From Aureisphaera galaxeae (GTDB lineage Bacteria > Bacteroidota > Bacteroidia > Flavobacteriales > Flavobacteriaceae), in assembly GCF_028561275.1 (NCBI RefSeq), contig NZ_JAQQTF010000002.1, forward strand, positions 466,812 to 530,811: DNA of 64,000 nt. The letters run 5' to 3'. The position numbers and the translations under genes are program-made. Positions 12,145 through 45,771 of the stretch are shown in pieces. Under the pieces are notes generated by a model. The model was not told the DNA's origin, made no database searches, and saw nothing but the letters and a program-made list of their open reading frames with translations. Numbering within the stretch: position 1 is the stretch's first letter; each line of letters opens with the position of its first letter.

Positions 12145-13305
12145 ATGGGGTTGTTCATGATTAGTATGACCGTGAAACGCCTTTTATTTACATATTTTCT
12201 TCTGTTCCCCGTGTTTGTATTTGGCCAATTGCCCAATATAGACAGCCTTAGAACCGTTGCCAAAAATGCAAAAACCGAATATGATAAAGCCTATTCCTAC
12301 TGGCGGATAGGGGTCACTTTTTGGCAAGGGCAACTTCATTACGATAGCTGTTATTACTACACCGAAAAAGCGTACGACATTGCTAGAAGAATTAAGGATC
12401 CGAACCTAATTGCAAGGGTATACTTCAATTTTGGAAGTATTCATATGCGAATGGAGGAGTATGAAAAAGCGTTGGAGAATTTTGAGGAGTCCCTGGGTTA
12501 TTTTGAGATGTTAAAGGACTCAACTAATATAGGGATTCTTTACAGTAGTATGGCGGCTGTGAACTACCATAAAAAGGATTATTTGCAGGCAAAAGAATTT
12601 TATGAGAAGTCATATACTCTTACTAAAAAGGGTAGGAGCCCTTTAAGTGCAATGGCGGATCTGGCCAATCTGGGCGAAACGGAACTGGAAATTGAAGGCA
12701 TGATGGATTCTGCCAAGAAAAATTTCGAAAAAGCCCGAGAACTTGCCAAGGAAGCTAACGTTGAGTTTCCATCCTTACATACCCCTTATGGCAAGATACT
12801 TTTTGCTGAAGGGGATGCTGAAGGAGCTAGGCTCGAGGCTGAAAAGGGACTGGAAATTGCGAAGAGGGATCAAAATATTGAAGCTATAGCAACGGCACTG
12901 GATCTCCTGTATAGAATCGATGTGGCCGAAGGGAATTACAAGGAAGCTGTTCAGCTTTTTAATCTAAAGACGGTCTATCAAGATAGTATCAATGAAGCCA
13001 AAAACGTATTGGCTATCGAAAACTTGGAGCTCAACTTCAAAATTGAGGAGCAGAAGGAAGAACTGGAGCAATTAACACAGAAAAAGGCCTATCAAACTAT
13101 GATCTATGTATTGGTTGCCCTTGGTGTTCTGTTGTTGATTATATTGGTTTTCAGACAACGAAAGATTTCTGGTATGACCAAGGAAATTCACAAGATTCAG
13201 AAAAAATTGATAGAACAGGAACTTCAACAACGCGAATGGCACCTCCAAAACCCGAATACGACGGCATTTCAAGCGGCAGCCATGAAGGATCCAGATGAGG
13301 AATGA
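12145..13305 (+). CDS. TPR-repeat single-span membrane protein, paralogue 4 of 4
   Basis: 386 residues; the ATG at 12166 (codon 8) is an alternative start just before the signal-peptide core (RLLFTYFLLFPVFVFGQ). TPR units include FNFGSIHMRMEEYEKALENF near 94-113. The membrane helix is about 316-335, and the tail (SGMTKEIHKIQKKLIEQELQ, then REWHLQNPN) closely matches that of paralogue 1. There is a 164-bp gap before it, longer than between the other copies, with a near -7 box TATCTTTC about 40 bp upstream, so it may be separately transcribed. An AraC-type membrane regulator follows 83 bp downstream. Confidence 0.8.
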   Translation: MGLFMISMTVKRLLFTYFLLFPVFVFGQLPNIDSLRTVAKNAKTEYDKAYSYWRIGVTFWQGQLHYDSCYYYTEKAYDIARRIKDPNLIARVYFNFGSIHMRMEEYEKALENFEESLGYFEMLKDSTNIGILYSSMAAVNYHKKDYLQAKEFYEKSYTLTKKGRSPLSAMADLANLGETELEIEGMMDSAKKNFEKARELAKEANVEFPSLHTPYGKILFAEGDAEGARLEAEKGLEIAKRDQNIEAIATALDLLYRIDVAEGNYKEAVQLFNLKTVYQDSINEAKNVLAIENLELNFKIEEQKEELEQLTQKKAYQTMIYVLVALGVLLLIILVFRQRKISGMTKEIHKIQKKLIEQELQQREWHLQNPNTTAFQAAAMKDPDEE

Positions 13306-29389: not shown

Positions 29390-29505
29390 GGGAGGGATGG
29401 GAGCGGCATCCCCTGTAGTAGAGTTCCTCACTACAGGGATACAGCGGACAGCCCGGCCCTGTCTGTCGGAGCCTTAGCGAAGGCAGGAAGGGACCCGCCA
29501 AACTA
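29390..29505. repeat. Intergenic structured repeat (flavobacterial REP-like element)
   Basis: CCCTGTAGT (29411-29419) and ACTACAGGG (29430-29438) make a perfect hairpin, followed by GCCTTAGCGAAGGC (29471-29484), a second perfect hairpin. GC-rich against its surroundings. The second part shares an AGCGAAG core with palindromes at 32372, 32414 and 34120. Confidence 0.6.
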
Positions 29506-29573
29506 TAGATAAAAACAATCTGCCAATTAGTCAAAGCTATGCTTCCGTTGTAAGTTTTGGAATAAAATTTGAC

Positions 29574-29581
29574 TACTTTTG
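29574..29581 (+). promoter_or_regulatory. -7 box of trxA
   Basis: TACTTTTG fits TAnnTTTG, 25 bp upstream of the ATG. The best TTTG upstream (29556-29559) is only 14 bp away, so the -33 is weak. Confidence 0.5.
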
Positions 29582-29606
29582 CGTAACCTTTAAATATATT
29601 AAGACA

Positions 29607-29927
29607 ATGGCTTTAGAAATAACGGATGCAACATTTGAAGAAACTGTGTTAAAGAGTGACAAACCAGTGATGGTAGACTTTTGGGCTGCTTGGTGTGGAC
29701 CTTGTCGCATGGTAGGACCTGTAATCGACGAGTTGAGCAACGAGTACGAAGGAAAAGCAGTGGTAGGAAAGGTAGATGTAGATGCAAATCAGGAGTTTGC
29801 TGCTAAGTTTGGTGTGCGTAACATCCCAACTGTATTGGTTTTCAATAACGGTGAGTTGGTAGGCCGTCAGGTAGGAGTAGCTCCTAAGAATGTGTATGCC
29901 GAAGCTTTGGATTCACTTTTAAACTAG
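29607..29927 (+). CDS. trxA: Thioredoxin
   Basis: 106 residues, typical length. Active site WCGPC with Cys30 and Cys33, in VDFWAAWCGPCRMVGPVIDE, and the conserved cis-Pro in RNIPTVLVF near 74-76. Reduces protein disulfides in the cytosol using thioredoxin reductase. Single gene with own promoter and terminator. Confidence 0.95.
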   Translation: MALEITDATFEETVLKSDKPVMVDFWAAWCGPCRMVGPVIDELSNEYEGKAVVGKVDVDANQEFAAKFGVRNIPTVLVFNNGELVGRQVGVAPKNVYAEALDSLLN

Positions 29928-29949
29928 AAAAAGAAAAATAGTTTGAATA

Positions 29950-29978
29950 AAGGCTCTCTTTTGGGAGCCTTTTCTTAT
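29950..29978 (+). terminator. trxA terminator
   Basis: AAGGCTCTC and GGGAGCCTT pair round a TTTT loop, then a T-rich run, 23 bp past the stop. Confidence 0.85.
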
Positions 29979-29995
29979 TTTAGTAGGCAGTCAGG

Positions 29996-30050
29996 TCGAG
30001 CGCAGTCGAGACCTTTTTGCTAGAATCTTAGACCTCTCGACTGCGCTCGA
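29996..30050. repeat. Inverted repeat with TCGAGCGCAGTCGAG arms
   Basis: TCGAGCGCAGTCGAG (29996-30010) and CTCGACTGCGCTCGA (30036-30050) are perfect complements with a 25-bp spacer, between trxA and clpP. Its form is that of a dispersed intergenic palindrome common in Flavobacteriia, stated from memory; no second copy lies in this window. Confidence 0.7.
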
Positions 30051-30069
30051 GGGGACAGTAAATTTTACT

Positions 30070-30615
30070 ATGGAAAAAGTATATAAAGTACAGGATCAAA
30101 TAGACAATGTCCTTTTAAAGGATCGAAAAATATTTTTATGGGGAATGGTAGACGACGATAGTGCCAAGCATGTGGTAGATCGTTTGTTGTACTTGGATTC
30201 CCTAAGTAATGAAGAAATCAAGTTATACATTAATAGCCCAGGGGGATATGTGACCTCCGGATTTTCCATGTACGATACCATTAAGGCGGTAAAAAGTCCC
30301 GTTTCGACCATTTGTACTGGATTGGCGGCTTCTATGGGAAGTTTGCTGCTTTCGGCTGGGGAGAAGGGACGTAGGTTCATTCAGCCGCATGCCCGGGTAA
30401 TGATCCATCAGCCCAGCGGCGGAGCCCGAGGACCGGCTAGTGATATTGAAATCACCGCTCAAGAAATCATTAAGACCAAAGAATTGAGTGCACAGATCTT
30501 GGCAGATAACTGTGGCCAGACTTTTGATAAGGTAATGAAGGATTTTAACCGTGACCACTGGATGGGTGCTGAGGAAAGCGTAGAGTACGGTATTGTGGAT
30601 GGAGTTTTGGAGTGA
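30070..30615 (+). CDS. clpP: ClpP-type serine protease subunit
   Basis: 181 residues, slightly shorter than E. coli ClpP. Full catalytic triad visible: Ser88 in GLAASMGSLLLSAG, His113 in RVMIHQPSGG, and Asp162 in FNRDHWMGAEESVEYGIVDG. It is a barrel protease that degrades substrates unfolded by ClpX or ClpC. No clpX gene is adjacent, so this may be a second ClpP, as found in other Bacteroidota. Its stop codon lies inside the first unit of the heptamer array. Confidence 0.88.
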   Translation: MEKVYKVQDQIDNVLLKDRKIFLWGMVDDDSAKHVVDRLLYLDSLSNEEIKLYINSPGGYVTSGFSMYDTIKAVKSPVSTICTGLAASMGSLLLSAGEKGRRFIQPHARVMIHQPSGGARGPASDIEITAQEIIKTKELSAQILADNCGQTFDKVMKDFNRDHWMGAEESVEYGIVDGVLE

Positions 30616-30652
30616 AAGGTGAGGAGTGAAAGGTGAAAAGTGAGAGGTGATT
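30611..30652 (-). repeat. Left heptamer array, six units
   Basis: Six consecutive 7-bp units of the form xGTGAxx, 42 bp in all: AGTGAAA, GGTGAGG, AGTGAAA, GGTGAAA, AGTGAGA, GGTGATT. Read on the minus strand they are xxTCACx units, the inverse of the array at 31026-31067. The clpP stop TGA (30613-30615) falls in the first unit. Confidence 0.85.
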
Positions 30653-30667
30653 AGAGGATTTTAGGAT

Positions 30668-31021
30668 ATGGATCATAAGGAAATGGAGGTGTGGAAGAAA
30701 AGTATGTTGCTGGCAGAAGTGGTGTATGATCTGACTAAAAACTTCCCTGATAATGAAAGATTTGGATTGACAAGTCAAATAAGACGCGCAGTGGTATCCG
30801 TTCCTTCCAATATTGCCGAAGGAGCCGCTAGAATGAGTGATAAGGAATTTATACGGTTTCTAAGTATTGCTATGGGCTCTTTGTCTGAAGTTGAAACTCA
30901 ATACCATTTGGCATTAAGATTTGGTTTCGTTGAAAGAAATAAAAGGATAGAAAAATTGATTGACTCATCTAGAGGATTGATAATAGGAACGCGAAATTAT
31001 TTATTGAAAAAGGCGGTATAA
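30668..31021 (+). CDS. Four-helix-bundle protein of the 23S rRNA-IVP / Avd-like family (TIGR02436)
   Basis: 117 residues, all helical. Motifs match the TIGR02436 family: MEVWKKSMLLAEVVYDLTKNFP at the start, LTSQIRRAVVSVPSNIAEGAARMSDKEF near 34-60 (VSVPSNIAEG is the hallmark), and GSLSEVETQYHLALRFG near 70-86. Family members are found as 23S rRNA intervening-sequence proteins and as accessory proteins Avd of diversity-generating retroelements; a nucleic-acid role is inferred. No reverse transcriptase is present here. The gene sits between two 42-bp heptamer arrays in opposite orientation and is thereby framed as a discrete cassette of about 457 bp. Confidence 0.88.
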   Translation: MDHKEMEVWKKSMLLAEVVYDLTKNFPDNERFGLTSQIRRAVVSVPSNIAEGAARMSDKEFIRFLSIAMGSLSEVETQYHLALRFGFVERNKRIEKLIDSSRGLIIGTRNYLLKKAV

Positions 31022-31025
31022 ATCG

Positions 31026-31067
31026 TCACCCATCACCCATCACGTATCACATATCACGTATCACAGA
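31026..31067 (+). repeat. Right heptamer array, six units
   Basis: Six 7-bp units: TCACCCA, TCACCCA, TCACGTA, TCACATA, TCACGTA, TCACAGA. 42 bp, the same length as the left array, opposite orientation. It begins 5 bp after the stop of the four-helix-bundle gene and ends 4 bp before the DUF58 ATG at 31072. Confidence 0.85.
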
Positions 31068-31071
31068 AAAA

Positions 31072-32001
31072 ATGAATATAGAAAAAGAAATAAACGAAAT
31101 CACTGGGTTTAAGAACCTGGAACTACTGGCTACACAAGTGGTAGAAGGGTTTATTTCTGGTTTGCATAAAAGTCCGTTTCACGGATTTTCGGCCGAGTTT
31201 GCCGAGCACAAAATCTACAACAACGGGGAAAGTACTAAGCATATCGATTGGAAGCTCTACGCCAAAACCGATAAGCTGTATACCAAACGGTACGAAGAAG
31301 AGACCAATTTGCGCTGTCATCTTATTTTAGACAACAGTAGCTCCATGCACTATCCGAAATTGAAGGAGTTTCATATCGATTCCCTCAATAAAATTGGATT
31401 TTCGGCTTTGGCCATTGCTGCCATCATGAATTTGCTGAAGAGGCAACGGGATGCGGTAGGAATGAGTATTTATAGTAATGCTTACGATTACTATGCCCAG
31501 GAAAAAGGAAGTGAACGCCACCATCATATGCTTTTGGCCCAATTGAATCAGGCCATAGCCAATAGAAGGAAGGAAATAACAACAAAAACCTACACCCACC
31601 TGCATTTAATTGCTGAAAAGCTGAAGCGCCGATCCTTGGTGTTTTTGTTTACCGATATGTTTCAGACCGAAACGGAAGAAGAGCAATTGTTTGAGGCGCT
31701 ACAGCATTTAAAGTACAACAAGCACGAAGTGGTTTTGTTCCATACCTATGATGGACAAAAAGAATTGTATTTCGATTTTTCGAATCGGCCCAAGCGTTTT
31801 GTCGATGTGGAGACAGGCGAGCATGTCAATTTATATGCGGATACCATTAAGGAGAATTACCAAAAGGCTGTAGAGGACTATTTCGGGGAATTGGAGCTGA
31901 AATGTGGGCAGTACCGAATTAAATATGTGAAGGCCGATATTAATGAAGGATTCAATAAAATTTTGACCACCTATTTGGTCGAAAGGCAGAAGTTTGGATA
32001 G
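31072..32001 (+). CDS. DUF58 domain protein (von Willebrand A-like)
   Basis: 309 residues. The middle shows the DUF58 hallmark STKHIDWKLYAKTDKLYTKRYEEE near 51-74 and a VWA-like metal site LILDNSSSMHYPKL (DxSxS, about 83-96), then FLFTDMFQTETEEEQ near 190-204. DUF58 genes normally sit with moxR AAA genes in Bat operons; here moxR is not adjacent. Its start is immediately after the right heptamer array, so the insertion probably separated it from clpP or another gene. Confidence 0.82.
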   Translation: MNIEKEINEITGFKNLELLATQVVEGFISGLHKSPFHGFSAEFAEHKIYNNGESTKHIDWKLYAKTDKLYTKRYEEETNLRCHLILDNSSSMHYPKLKEFHIDSLNKIGFSALAIAAIMNLLKRQRDAVGMSIYSNAYDYYAQEKGSERHHHMLLAQLNQAIANRRKEITTKTYTHLHLIAEKLKRRSLVFLFTDMFQTETEEEQLFEALQHLKYNKHEVVLFHTYDGQKELYFDFSNRPKRFVDVETGEHVNLYADTIKENYQKAVEDYFGELELKCGQYRIKYVKADINEGFNKILTTYLVERQKFG

Positions 32002-32158
32002 GGGCGCATTTTTTTCTGAAAATTGTTTGTGAAATAAAAAAGACGTGATATATTTGCATCCGCCTTTGCAATCAAGGTCACACCTTAAAAAGCAAAGTGG
32101 TAACAATTTCTTTTACGCCTAGCTGTTGCTAGGGTCTTTGCAAAAAGATAAGAAAATT

Positions 32159-32232
32159 GGTCTGGTAGTTCAGTTGGTTAGAATACCTGCCTGTCACGCA
32201 GGGGGTCGCGAGTTCGAGTCTCGTCCAGACCG
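32159..32232 (+). tRNA. tRNA-Asp (GTC)
   Basis: Acceptor stem GGTCTGG (32159-32165) pairs with CCAGACC (32225-32231), discriminator G at 32232. Anticodon stem CCTGC / GCAGG encloses a loop with GTC, hence Asp. T-arm has GTTCGAGTC. CCA is not encoded. Confidence 0.95.
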
Positions 32233-32311
32233 CAACAGATTCTGAATCTGGTTCAGAATTACGAAGTTGTGTTGAGATGCAGAAATGCATCGAGTGGTTT
32301 AGAAATAAACC

Positions 32312-32348
32312 AATGAAGAGCTTATCCGTTTGGATGGGCTTTTTTTGT
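32312..32348 (+). terminator. Terminator after tRNA-Asp
   Basis: AGCTTATCC (32319-32327) and GGATGGGCT (32332-32340) then a T run. Same hairpin as at 5451-5478. Confidence 0.85.
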
Positions 32349-32359
32349 TTCTGGGTGTC

Positions 32360-32440
32360 ACATCCATCGAAGCCCTAGCGAAGATGAAGGCTTTTTTTGT
32401 ATCACCCTTCATAGCTTCAGCGAAGAAGGGTTCCTGCCTT
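32360..32440. repeat. Two further AGCGAAG palindromic elements
   Basis: GCCCTAGCGAAG at 32372-32383 is followed by a GGCT-T7 run; GCTTCAGCGAAG at 32414-32425 is nested in the CCCTTC / GAAGGG hairpin at 32405-32430. Both resemble 29471 and 34120. Confidence 0.5.
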
Positions 32441-32460
32441 TTGAAATACCTTACCCAACC

Positions 32461-33972
32461 CTACATATTTTCAATAGCCTGGGTGGGGCGAAGGCGTCTG
32501 GGGCCAATCTTTAAGGTAAGCTCATATTGCTCCTTGGCCTCTTCCATCCTTCCTTGAGCTACAAGCCAGTCGGCATATAGTTCGCGAACCGGTTTTTGAA
32601 TTTTCGGAGGGCCATAACTGAAGCTCATTCCTTCGAAGAGTTCGATAGACTTTAATAAATGGGCTTCTGTCTGTTCTGTATTGCCATTCAACCAGGCCGC
32701 CAAGCCCAATAATTGCTCTATTCTTACTTCAGATTGGGTAATATCCATTTGGTTGGCATCGGCCCTAGAAATGTTAGAACACAGTTTGCTGCTTCCTGCT
32801 TTTATAACAAATTTTTCTCGGTCAATGTTATTCCGAGCTACAAGAATTAAGCTGTCCAACGCATTTGAATTCGCATCCTTAAAAGCTTTCATTCCTTCTA
32901 GAAAATGGTATTGCGACCTAACAGAAACATTGAGGTCTGCCGTTTCAACTGGAATGTCTGCGATTGTAGAATCCCAATCATCCGTTTCCACAAGATAGGT
33001 GCCTTTTAAAAATACCATGTGGGCACGGGAACGTGCAGAAGGCGATTCGCTCATGAATTGTTGCATCTCCCAAACCATTTCGGCCGCTTTTTCCTTATTT
33101 CCTTGCTGAAGATGGCCATATTCCAACCAATGAAAGGCGTGGTATCCACGTGCATTGTTGTCGAGACCCTTGCGTTTCATTCTGCTCAGACTCGCATTAT
33201 AGGAGGCTATGTTGGAAGATACAACTTCGTCCCACATCCCCATGGCAACGTAAATATGTGAAGGCATGTGTAAGGCATGACTGGCATCTGGTGCAACCAC
33301 TGCATATGCATTCGCAGCGTCCAAGGCCATGTAAGCATGCTTTGGGTCGTCATAGGAATGGATGAGGTAGTGTAAAGCCCCAGGGTGATTCGGATTCTCA
33401 GCAATAATCCCTTGGGCGATCACAGCTCCCTTTTCATAAATTTCTTCATTACGTCCTTCAGAAACTGAACCGAGTAGTGAAAGGGCGTAAAATGCAGCCA
33501 CTTCATGATTATCCGGATATTTTTGATGTAGAGACTCCATATACGCCGAGTAATTGTCGTCCCGATCCAACTTTTCTGTTTTTTTGGTATATAATATTTT
33601 CAGGGCCTCAATTAGATCCTTTTCAAGCTGGGTGCAGTTCGCTTTATAGTCCAGCTTTTCAAGTTTTTCCATAATGGGCAAGGCCTTATCGTAATCCTGC
33701 TCACTCCAAAGGCTATGATTATGGGTCATGGCTTCACCCCAATAGGCCATAGCCATTTCCGGATCTGCCAACTGGGCCTCTTTAAAAACCTCTCTGGCAT
33801 CCTCATATTCAAATGAATGCAAAAGCAATAAGCCTTTTTCAAAATGGGCGGCGGCCTGGGGTTTTCCTGTAACCTCAAGTGAAACAACACCTAAAAAGGA
33901 TGGGGAAGGACCATTTTTCTTACAGGACCCTGCGAGAAAAAGAACGATTAAGAGAAGATATATGTTTTTCAT
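32461..33972 (-). CDS. TPR lipoprotein (TTC38-like)
   Basis: 503 residues. Lipobox LAGSC (Cys17) after a short signal peptide, so anchored to a membrane. TPR-like helices run from about 35 to 490. Distinctive segments are PEMAMAYWGEAMTHNHSLW (about 70-88), DAANAYAVVAPDASHALHMPSHIY near 220-243, and NARGYHAFHWLEYGHLQQGN near 273-292, which resemble the TTC38-like family. Function unknown. Isolated gene. Confidence 0.8.
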   Translation of the reverse strand: MKNIYLLLIVLFLAGSCKKNGPSPSFLGVVSLEVTGKPQAAAHFEKGLLLLHSFEYEDAREVFKEAQLADPEMAMAYWGEAMTHNHSLWSEQDYDKALPIMEKLEKLDYKANCTQLEKDLIEALKILYTKKTEKLDRDDNYSAYMESLHQKYPDNHEVAAFYALSLLGSVSEGRNEEIYEKGAVIAQGIIAENPNHPGALHYLIHSYDDPKHAYMALDAANAYAVVAPDASHALHMPSHIYVAMGMWDEVVSSNIASYNASLSRMKRKGLDNNARGYHAFHWLEYGHLQQGNKEKAAEMVWEMQQFMSESPSARSRAHMVFLKGTYLVETDDWDSTIADIPVETADLNVSVRSQYHFLEGMKAFKDANSNALDSLILVARNNIDREKFVIKAGSSKLCSNISRADANQMDITQSEVRIEQLLGLAAWLNGNTEQTEAHLLKSIELFEGMSFSYGPPKIQKPVRELYADWLVAQGRMEEAKEQYELTLKIGPRRLRPTQAIENM

Positions 33973-44183: not shown

Positions 44184-44972
44184 ATGAATTTCGATTTTGA
44201 AGGTTATATAGATTTTAAATCTTTTGTTGGTCGTTATGATGTTTTACCAAATAAGATTGTAGAGTTGTTCAGAGAATTTGAACATCCAAAAAAAATAAAT
44301 ATTATTGATTTGGGGTCTGGTGAGCTTACCTTACTGGAAAAAATGAATGACGCCCTTTCCAAGCATTACAACACCAATTGTATCGCTATAGATGATTCAA
44401 AAGATATACTTGGAAATATTTTGATTAAATATGGAGGAAGTTTGCCTGATTTTCTTCACGAATTTGTTCAACAAGATATAGAGGAATACATTAAGCAGAA
44501 TGACGGTTCCTGGAATCTCATTTTGTTAAGCCATGTTATATATCACATACCCTTGTCCAATTGGATACAATTAATTAAGAGGCTTCAAAACCAGTTAGCA
44601 GTGAACGGGAAATTGTTTGTTGTTGCAAGGAGCATCAAGGGAGAATGGTGGAGTATATTTGAAAACCTTCAAAGAAAGATTGAACAATTTCAATTAAGTA
44701 CGTATCGATTTTCCGAAGACTTTGAAAAAGCGTTGCGAGAGACAGGGATTAACTATCATAAAACAGGTGTGAGCTATATCGGGACAGTGAATAATTTAAG
44801 TCAACTTGTAAATGCTTTTGAATTCCTTTATAGATTGCCAAGCGGATATGTTGAACCGGAAAGCAATCTCCATAAGAGCATTGCATTTTCTGCTCAGAAC
44901 AAGATAGTCAATGGAGATTGCCAATTTGGGTTTATCGATGAAATATTTATGATATCCAGTTTAAATGAATAA
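44184..44972 (+). CDS. Class I SAM-dependent methyltransferase embedded in the importer operon
   Basis: 262 residues. SAM motif INIIDLGSGELTLLEKM near 38-54 and an acidic TNCIAIDDSKDILG near 64-77, then NLILLSHVIYHIP near 113-125. Resembles small-molecule methyltransferases; specificity not known. Located between the binding protein and the ATPase of one importer, so it may act on the imported molecule. Its 3' end is copied in a 54-bp tandem repeat, which places a stop and a spare start before the ATPase gene. Confidence 0.8.
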   Translation: MNFDFEGYIDFKSFVGRYDVLPNKIVELFREFEHPKKINIIDLGSGELTLLEKMNDALSKHYNTNCIAIDDSKDILGNILIKYGGSLPDFLHEFVQQDIEEYIKQNDGSWNLILLSHVIYHIPLSNWIQLIKRLQNQLAVNGKLFVVARSIKGEWWSIFENLQRKIEQFQLSTYRFSEDFEKALRETGINYHKTGVSYIGTVNNLSQLVNAFEFLYRLPSGYVEPESNLHKSIAFSAQNKIVNGDCQFGFIDEIFMISSLNE

Positions 44973-45035
44973 TAAAATGGAGGGTTTATCGATGAAATAT
45001 TTATGATATCCAGTTTAAATGAATAATAAAATGGA
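44928..45035. repeat. Exact 54-bp tandem duplication at the methyltransferase/ATPase junction
   Basis: Copies at 44928-44981 and 44982-45035 are identical; a 6-bp start of a third follows. The unit covers the last codons and stop of the methyltransferase gene and the ATG (44965 in copy 1, 45019 in copy 2) of the ATPase gene. Confidence 0.95.
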
Positions 45036-45771
45036 GGGTTTGTTTATTGAAGACTTGGCCATAGTTTATAAAACTAATCAAGGGCCACTTTTGGCAATAG
45101 ATAAGGTTACCTTTAAAGTCCCAATGGGGAATAAAGTAGCCATTTTGGGCCCATCGGGCTGTGGAAAAAGCAGTGTCTTGAAAGCTATATCTGGATTGGT
45201 TCCAAAAACTTCGGGGGCCATTAAGTTTGATTCAAAACTAAGTTTTGGGTATGTTCCACAAACCACAGCTCTCTTTAATTGGAAAACAGTTGAAGAGAAT
45301 ATTAGCTTCCCATTGCAAATAAGAAACTTCGATGAAACTTATAGAAAAGAAAGGGTTTCGCAATTAATGGATGTTTTCAGACTTAGCGAATTTGGTAAGT
45401 TGTACCCAAGAGAGTTGTCTGGAGGAATGAAATCACGAGTAGCTATTGCTAGATCTCTTTCAGACAAACCGGACGTTCTTTTGCTAGACGAATGCTTTGG
45501 AAATTTAGACGAACTTACTAGGGAGGCTTTATATATAGAACTTACAGCTTCCTTTGAACAGCTTGGCACCACGATATTATTTGTTACTCACTCGATTCAA
45601 GAGGCTGTATTTATGGCCGATAGCATAGTGGTTTTTTCTAATGCTCCTGGAAGGATTAAAAACATTATTGAGATTCCAAAGACTTATTCAAAAACAAAGA
45701 CTTTTTTTAAGTCCGAACAATTCCATTCGCTTTGCTTAAAAGTGAGGGAAGCATTAGAAAAAAATAACTAA
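45019..45771 (+). CDS. ABC importer ATPase, SsuB/TauB-like
   Basis: 250 residues from the second-copy ATG at 45019. Walker A GPSGCGKSS at 44-52, Q-loop in YVPQTT, signature LSGGM near 131, Walker B with DECFGNLDE near 154-162 (Cys in place of the usual Pro of DEPFG) and H-loop in VTHSIQEAV. Energises the importer of 42395-44177. The start context is altered by the tandem duplication upstream. Confidence 0.9.
   Translation: MNNKMEGLFIEDLAIVYKTNQGPLLAIDKVTFKVPMGNKVAILGPSGCGKSSVLKAISGLVPKTSGAIKFDSKLSFGYVPQTTALFNWKTVEENISFPLQIRNFDETYRKERVSQLMDVFRLSEFGKLYPRELSGGMKSRVAIARSLSDKPDVLLLDECFGNLDELTREALYIELTASFEQLGTTILFVTHSIQEAVFMADSIVVFSNAPGRIKNIIEIPKTYSKTKTFFKSEQFHSLCLKVREALEKNN

Follow-up and report, generated by a model that had tools for sequence, protein, structure and literature searches.

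A gene for an S23p family protein between inverse heptamer arrays at a clpP/DUF58 junction: a likely mobile, IVS-like element

Two kinds of described sequence come closest to the locus analysed here: the intervening sequences (IVSs) of 23S rRNA genes, first described in 1990, and tandem arrays of 7-bp repeats, of which the cyanobacterial heptamer repeats (STRR) are the classic case. The IVSs of Leptospira and C. burnetii carry an open reading frame of the S23p family (23S rRNA-intervening-sequence proteins; IVPs) between inverted terminal repeats. In the accessible part of its description (PMC4990558), the C. burnetii IVS has a 28-bp terminal stem, is processed by RNase III and has up to three GACAGAT heptamers in tandem upstream of S23p; the authors call their frame expendable, and S23p/IVP proteins are said to 'have no known function'. 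TAACTGA heptamer repeats occur in Beggiatoaceae, cyanobacteria and Bacteroidetes (MacGregor 2015, PMC4679880), whilst GGGAATC repeats in Xanthomonas and Nostoc sit near the gene that precedes them, and X. campestris has 70 inverted pairs (PMC4692102). The accessible portions of both papers leave the role and origin of heptamer tandem arrays open; those portions contain neither 23S, four helix nor intervening (PMC4679880), and neither S23 nor four helix (PMC4692102). In full-text literature, with few subscription papers covered, we found no report among the matches listed that links S23p genes located outside rRNA with heptamer arrays in their flanks.

The element described here lies on the forward strand of the window, i.e. 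the whole 64 000-nucleotide stretch of DNA that was analysed. A preliminary description, made from the letters alone, had placed a TIGR02436 gene between two opposed six-unit heptamer arrays, and this is borne out. The left arm has six 7-bp GTGANNN units at 30612-30653 (GTGA at 30612, 30619, 30626, 30633, 30640 and 30647), and the right arm, its inverse, has six 7-bp TCACNNN units at 31026-31067 (TCAC at 31026, 31033, 31040, 31047, 31054 and 31061). The gene between them (30668-31021) matches PF05635 (1.1e-35; 122.5 bits, cut-off 33.8) and TIGR02436 (5.2e-34; 116.7 bits, cut-off 24), which places it in the S23p/23S_rRNA_IVP family. The upstream neighbour, clpP, encodes a ClpP-type protease (30070-30615; PF00574, 2.3e-67), and the downstream neighbour encodes a DUF58 protein (31072-32001; PF01882, 2.3e-26); all of these features are on the plus strand. 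As also proposed, the left array starts in the end of clpP, whose stop codon (30613-30615) is inside the first GTGA unit, and the right array ends at 31067, just before the DUF58 ATG at 31072. Four of the seven unit positions are fixed (GTGA) and the remaining three vary. With up to two mismatches allowed, TCACNNNTCACNNNTCAC has 13 matches in the window where 2.85 are expected (none of 100 shuffles gives as many), and a scan of the 64 kb for 4-mers recurring at least four times at 7-bp spacing returned the two cassette arrays alone. The order of arm, gene and inverse arm is firm.

The whole element, both arms and the S23p gene, spans 30612-31067, and its ~456 bp are close to the 428 nt of the 23S rRNA IVS. 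It shares with those IVSs the protein family, the inverted ends and the frame between them, and the suggestion in the preliminary description of a link to 23S IVS proteins holds: tandem heptamers precede S23p in C. burnetii as well. Unlike them, it lies between protein genes, and each of its two arms is an array of 7-bp units. A location in a 23S rRNA gene was ruled out by Rfam scans for the window, where 29500-32500 holds a tRNA alone, and for the 20 of 43 named loci (see below) that were scanned, none of which gave an rRNA match. The Avd protein of diversity-generating retroelements is a distant relative of S23p by fold; unlike those retroelements, the cassette holds the S23p gene alone and is too short for a reverse transcriptase. 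The S23p gene is the only frame of more than 77 codons inside 30612-31067, and the element has no transposase frame.

To see how the junction is occupied elsewhere, 60 genomes of the window's order, presumably Flavobacteriales (its own included), were compared. DUF58 was matched in 45 and 30 loci were examined; clpP lies beside DUF58 in 14, and the other 16, with no clpP in the stored stretch, are uninformative on the junction and were left out. Three of the 14 junctions hold both the S23p gene and GTGA/TCAC arrays (G000, the window's own genome; G004; G001), and 11 hold neither, among them that of G008, whose DUF58 is 96% identical. Gene and arrays of this motif therefore go together at this site, as had been suggested. 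The equality of unit numbers that had also drawn attention holds in the window, six and six, but is no defining feature: at the same site G004 has seven and three units in its arms, and G001 has four units, a decayed right array and an S23p gene with an internal stop.

Two more sites show the same kind of difference. The folD-site element of G000, which has a CAGT core, leaves no trace in the sister genome G008, and one G008 element is missing in G000, where about four heptamers of one arm remain. We read these heptamers as a relic arm, the alternative being an array that predates the gene. Presence and absence at otherwise matching sites, the mark of a mobile genetic element, is thus found at the clpP/DUF58 junction and at these two sites. 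A third site comparison (the G008 element L152 against G000) gave no clean empty site and a different stretch of ~770 bp instead. No target-site duplication was seen by eye at three sites, where the flanks have diverged.

How general the layout is was judged from further S23p genes. In the window's order, 40 of the 60 genomes have one; with further loci added there were 121 matches, 104 of which were kept (full length, with flanks of at least 100 nt without N). A second set of 43 named loci from mixed phyla, 24 of them not titled Bacteroidota, gave 46 matches, 44 with long enough flanks. The control set comprised 983 genes from stretches of five genomes. It replaced a first control of 21 neighbouring genes, in which autocorrelation rose at lag 7 (0.35) and a single score reached 28.5, probably due to arms within those genes' flanks.

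By eye, many S23p genes are flanked on both sides by repeats that are inverse complements of each other and whose sequence varies by element. On either side of the genes, lags 7, 14 and 21 stand out in the autocorrelation (0.43, 0.40 and 0.37 in the up-flanks; 0.27-0.33 at other lags). The best period-7 segment scores 13.8 on the left and 12.8 on the right, versus 4.5 when shuffled (n = 148), and lags 5, 6, 8 and 9 around the same genes score far lower, at 4.0-7.1. Both arms reach the period-7 cut in 41 of the 104 elements of the window's order and 19 of the 44 from mixed phyla, compared with 0 of 983 controls; a matched-arm score of at least 14 was found in 73/104 and 26/44, versus 22/983. 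The two-arm cut thus excludes more than half of the IVP genes, and the matched-arm cut about a third. Within the 44, loci not titled Bacteroidota pass the two cuts in 16 and 18 of 26 cases, and loci titled Bacteroidota do poorly (3 and 8 of 18). Arms are paired specifically: an arm scores 16.75 with its own partner and 9.14 with a swapped one, and the own partner ranks best of 104 in 38 cases and within the top 5% in 71.

Querying with the protein of PDB 2gsc in Gammaproteobacteria, the class of a Spongiibacteraceae genome as inferred from its name, returned 17 genes in 15 of 369 genomes. Once eight of the 23 rows of the resulting arm table, from genomes already sampled, had been left out, 10 of the 15 new genes measured had matched arms and seven passed on both sides. 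Nine of 35 plasmid records were examined; among the eight annotated S23p genes measured on cyanobacterial plasmids, six have inverted heptamer arms, one has direct arms and one has none. No phage record matched the window S23p protein. The check proposed in the preliminary description, whether other TIGR02436 genes carry arrays on either side, came out positive in many cases, but the repeat is usually not TCAC. The window cassette is one case of a general structure, in which period-7 flanks are inverse complements of each other. As a separate observation, S23p lies between cas6 and cas4 of CRISPR operons in plasmids of Anabaena sp. 90 and Pseudanabaena (L315, L318), and in L318 the heptamer arms are direct repeats, not inverted.

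The protein itself is basic: the 117-aa S23p of the window, a member of a four-helix bundle family, has a computed pI of 9.7, and the median over 127 S23p proteins is 8.7. Its closest solved relative (1.1e-29) is PDB 2gsc, the Xanthomonas S23p XCC0516, which has five chains and is described as a toroidal homopentamer (PMC4990558, in the part accessible). Of six pairs compared, three have a usable dS, and in the other three dS was not computable; dN/dS is well below 1 in the first three (0.14/2.45, 0.097/0.94 and 0.117/0.88), and in these measurable pairs the gene is under purifying selection. This is unlike the C. burnetii frame, as its authors see it. No protein near-identical to XCC0516 was found in the sampled class or order (best 64%); we predict that GGGAATC arms flank XCC0516.

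The arm sequences carry a pattern of their own. The conserved heptamer columns coincide between the two arms (correlation 0.36 versus 0.04, p = 7e-9, n = 60), and NRTNARN stands out as a weak signature across the family (1.71 bits; ten column-permuted nulls give 1.35-1.40). Arm similarity was tested on the 99 of 148 elements with an arm score of at least 14. An element and its nearest relative at a different site have an arm similarity of 0.300, versus 0.192 (sd 0.017) by chance; none of 2000 permutations reaches the observed value. On a tree of 159 S23p proteins, 20 with GTGA and those with internal stops left out, the GTGA core changes seven times versus 19.1 times when shuffled (minimum 15 in 300 shuffles); without two same-site orthologs the figures are 7 and 17.3. 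The GTGA core is carried in the window's order, Chlorobiota, Delta-, Beta- and Gammaproteobacteria and one cyanobacterium, and alike arms are seen at different sites with ~50-56% protein identity, in different phyla or classes.

This association is loose. Over all different-site pairs in different genomes, protein identity and arm similarity are uncorrelated (Spearman -0.01, p = 0.53); similarity rises at the highest identities only (0.218 at 45-55%, 0.365 at 55% and above), and of 42 proteins that share at least 42% identity with the window S23p, 28 do not have the GTGA core. An origin of the arms in the host genome was rejected, as sharing a genome makes elements no more alike than they are across genomes. 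The heptamer core follows the S23p lineage, if loosely, across sites and phyla. Protein recognition accounts for the pattern of the arms better than base pairing on its own does and, since S23p travels with the arms and is basic, it is the natural candidate. Arm recognition by S23p is accordingly our best inference from the sequences.

Taken together, the cassette is likely to be mobile and IVS-like. The account we lean towards, tentatively, is that of an IVS-type (S23p) mobile element living in operons, with arms that are putative binding sites for its own protein. The cassette would then belong to a large group of small mobile elements related to the 23S rRNA IVSs but located between operon genes. 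The basic S23p, perhaps as a pentameric ring like its relative 2gsc, would bind the heptamers, one core per 7 bp, and the bound protein may mark or bring together both ends of its own element. Both the mobility and the binding are inferred. Since the element encodes no known transposase, a catalyst would be needed from elsewhere for movement. Neither a recombinase nor a target-site duplication nor a pair of recently transposed copies came to light; in particular, the search for a recent copy pair within a genome gave at best a same-genome pair 63% identical, with unrelated arms. In its inverted ends, its sites without the element and the gene-less paired arms seen elsewhere (see below), it resembles non-autonomous transposons or MITEs, and differs from them in having no transposase frame, no target-site duplication seen by eye and ends that vary by element.

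A wider proposal, which we hold with a little less confidence still, is that S23p proteins bind motifs spaced at 7 bp in a sequence-specific way, with a core particular to each lineage, and that they drive pan-bacterial operon-dwelling elements. The 23S IVS would be a special case that landed in rRNA, and the cyanobacterial, Xanthomonas and Beggiatoaceae arrays would be, in whole or in part, the ends of such elements, either still active or left behind as fossils. The TAACTGA and GGGAATC arrays (as far as the accessible texts describe them) are likewise made of 7-bp units and mostly intergenic; unlike them, arrays of the window's type are tied to an S23p gene and its lineage. Two old puzzles may therefore meet here: the function of S23p/IVP proteins, and the role and origin of heptamer tandem arrays in several phyla. 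If each S23p binds its own heptamer, the family would be a new kind of multi-specific nucleic-acid-binding ring that explains a common genome feature. The layout around the S23p family in many bacteria looks like that of a widespread, little-noticed kind of mobile element.

The genomic setting bears on both this mobile-element account and its strongest rival. Both neighbours were called for 99 elements, and 96 of these are in sense orientation between co-directional genes, versus a background sense share of 518 in 951 gene triples from five genomes (54%; p = 7e-22); S23p starts a median of 54 nt after the upstream stop. This fits an S23p gene that uses the transcript of the host operon, and on the mobile-element account reliance on that transcript would explain the sense orientation. 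Alternatively, the element may act at the RNA level: in the operon transcript the arms would form a long stem that leaves the S23p frame as its loop, RNase III would cut as in the 23S IVS, and the stem would insulate the host genes and be selected for it. The same orientation suits this possibility, as do the stem and RNase III processing of the C. burnetii IVS (in the accessible part of PMC4990558). The lowest-energy fold of 30605-31072 does pair both arms, matched arm duplexes are stabler than mismatched ones (-26.6 versus -13.9 kcal/mol), and mirror units match in weak excess at variable columns (mean z 0.44, p = 0.007). However, a maintained stem should favour G.U over A.C, and transition mismatches divide into 83 G.U and 91 A.C (p = 0.60). 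The sense duplex is the stabler one in only 57 of 104 elements (p = 0.14; p = 0.10 for the 85 strong ones), the fold of the whole element does not outdo those of shuffled sequences (z -0.64), and at most six, on average about three, of the seven columns reach 80% conservation over both arms. As the mismatches have no G.U bias, RNA pairing alone does not explain the arm match. Stem maintenance was consequently rejected as the main cause, given no bias in counts or duplex energies, and kept as a rival; a hairpin function in RNA is possible, is not favoured by the mismatch test, and seems to us rather unlikely as the explanation.

Heptamer arrays also occur without the gene, which the preliminary description had named as evidence against its view if they were widespread. 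This is so in part: the window's genome has TCAC arrays with no S23p at no fewer than six places, and other-motif stretches occur at some clpP/DUF58 junctions (see below). The longest, a near-perfect TCACTCA array of 90 units (L039:4181-4807; G000:C14:578180 onward), has no adjoining S23p gene and lies inside a 227-codon open frame. In 400 kb of the same contig, C14, which was already known to hold two TCAC arrays, there are 13 period-7 segments, one of them a run of N, versus one in each of three shuffles, which is probably the same run. In G021 two gene-less pairs of facing arms were seen (L246:11068-11192 and 12259-12391), with 19 and 27 bases between cores; by simple ORF calls both lie between a stop and a start of co-directional genes. 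Gene-less arrays may be fossils, targets in trans or forerunners. Under the mobile-element account, lost elements would leave single arms, which would account for some of them, as the G000/G008 sites suggest; an array-first order is the alternative.

Such arrays could instead be targets. S23p would then be a regulator retained by the host, and its own arms together with gene-less arrays behind stops its putative binding sites in trans. In line with this, 7 of the 12 gene-less C14 arrays match resident S23p arms best among 104 elements (4 of 9 with a second detector; 0.23 expected), but these figures become 6/10 and 3/7 without the two TCAC arrays known beforehand, and for arrays selected by pattern in several genomes the own genome is best in just 5 of 49 (2.0 expected), many matching no sampled IVP arm. 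By hand tally, five-unit TCAC or ACTG arrays are present in 20 of the 40 relatives with an IVP and in 1 of the 20 without one, a comparison confounded by the often smaller size of IVP-less genomes and by the counting of IVP's own arms as arrays in some (G004 for one). In 200 kb each, the IVP-less G033 and G017 gave one poor match apiece and the IVP-bearing G022 none, and the comparison with IVP-less genomes is weak for that reason. Purifying selection in the three pairs would suit a retained regulator, whilst relic arms explain part of the gene-less arrays. We consider this regulatory role improbable.

The 11 clpP/DUF58 junctions without the gene provide a last comparison. Five (G007, G020, G032, G021 and G002) have a period-7 stretch of another motif, with scores of 10.5 to 23 on a motif-free measure, and the remaining six have none (scores of 7.2 or less). 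Some of these stretches, which are at loci L046, L051, L059, L061 and L047, lie directly behind the clpP stop. The junction is thus prone to heptamer arrays, and arrays and gene are not strictly tied; the stretches may be relics of other elements or arrays that preceded the gene. That arrays come first or mean nothing, slippage making 7-bp repeats, template switching equalizing inverted copies and the gene being a bystander or later settler, would agree with these five junctions, with arrays of up to 90 units, with unit numbers that differ between relatives at one site and with period-6 arrays as common as period-7 arrays in 400 kb at a four-unit cut (nine each), but at five units the counts are 2 for period 6 and 7 for period 7, period-7 arms stand on both sides of 60 of 148 IVP genes and 0 of 983 controls, lag 7 is well above its neighbouring lags there, the two arms share their conserved columns and the distribution of the core follows the protein tree, so as a full account it is unlikely, and the least probable of those considered here.

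Three minor observations were made elsewhere. Upstream of clpP, at 29996-30050 of the window, there is an inverted repeat, TCGAGCGCAGTCGA ... TCGACTGCGCTCGA, and a similar stretch occurs in the clpP/DUF58 junction of G002. A perfect 54-bp tandem repeat of 2.1 copies (44928-45041 of the window) runs from the end of a methyltransferase-like frame to the start of an ABC-transporter-ATPase-like frame, both named by eye. Finally, a weak, short match to the S23p profile (E = 9e-4) at L004 (G000:C12:1045654-1045809) is possibly a relic element.
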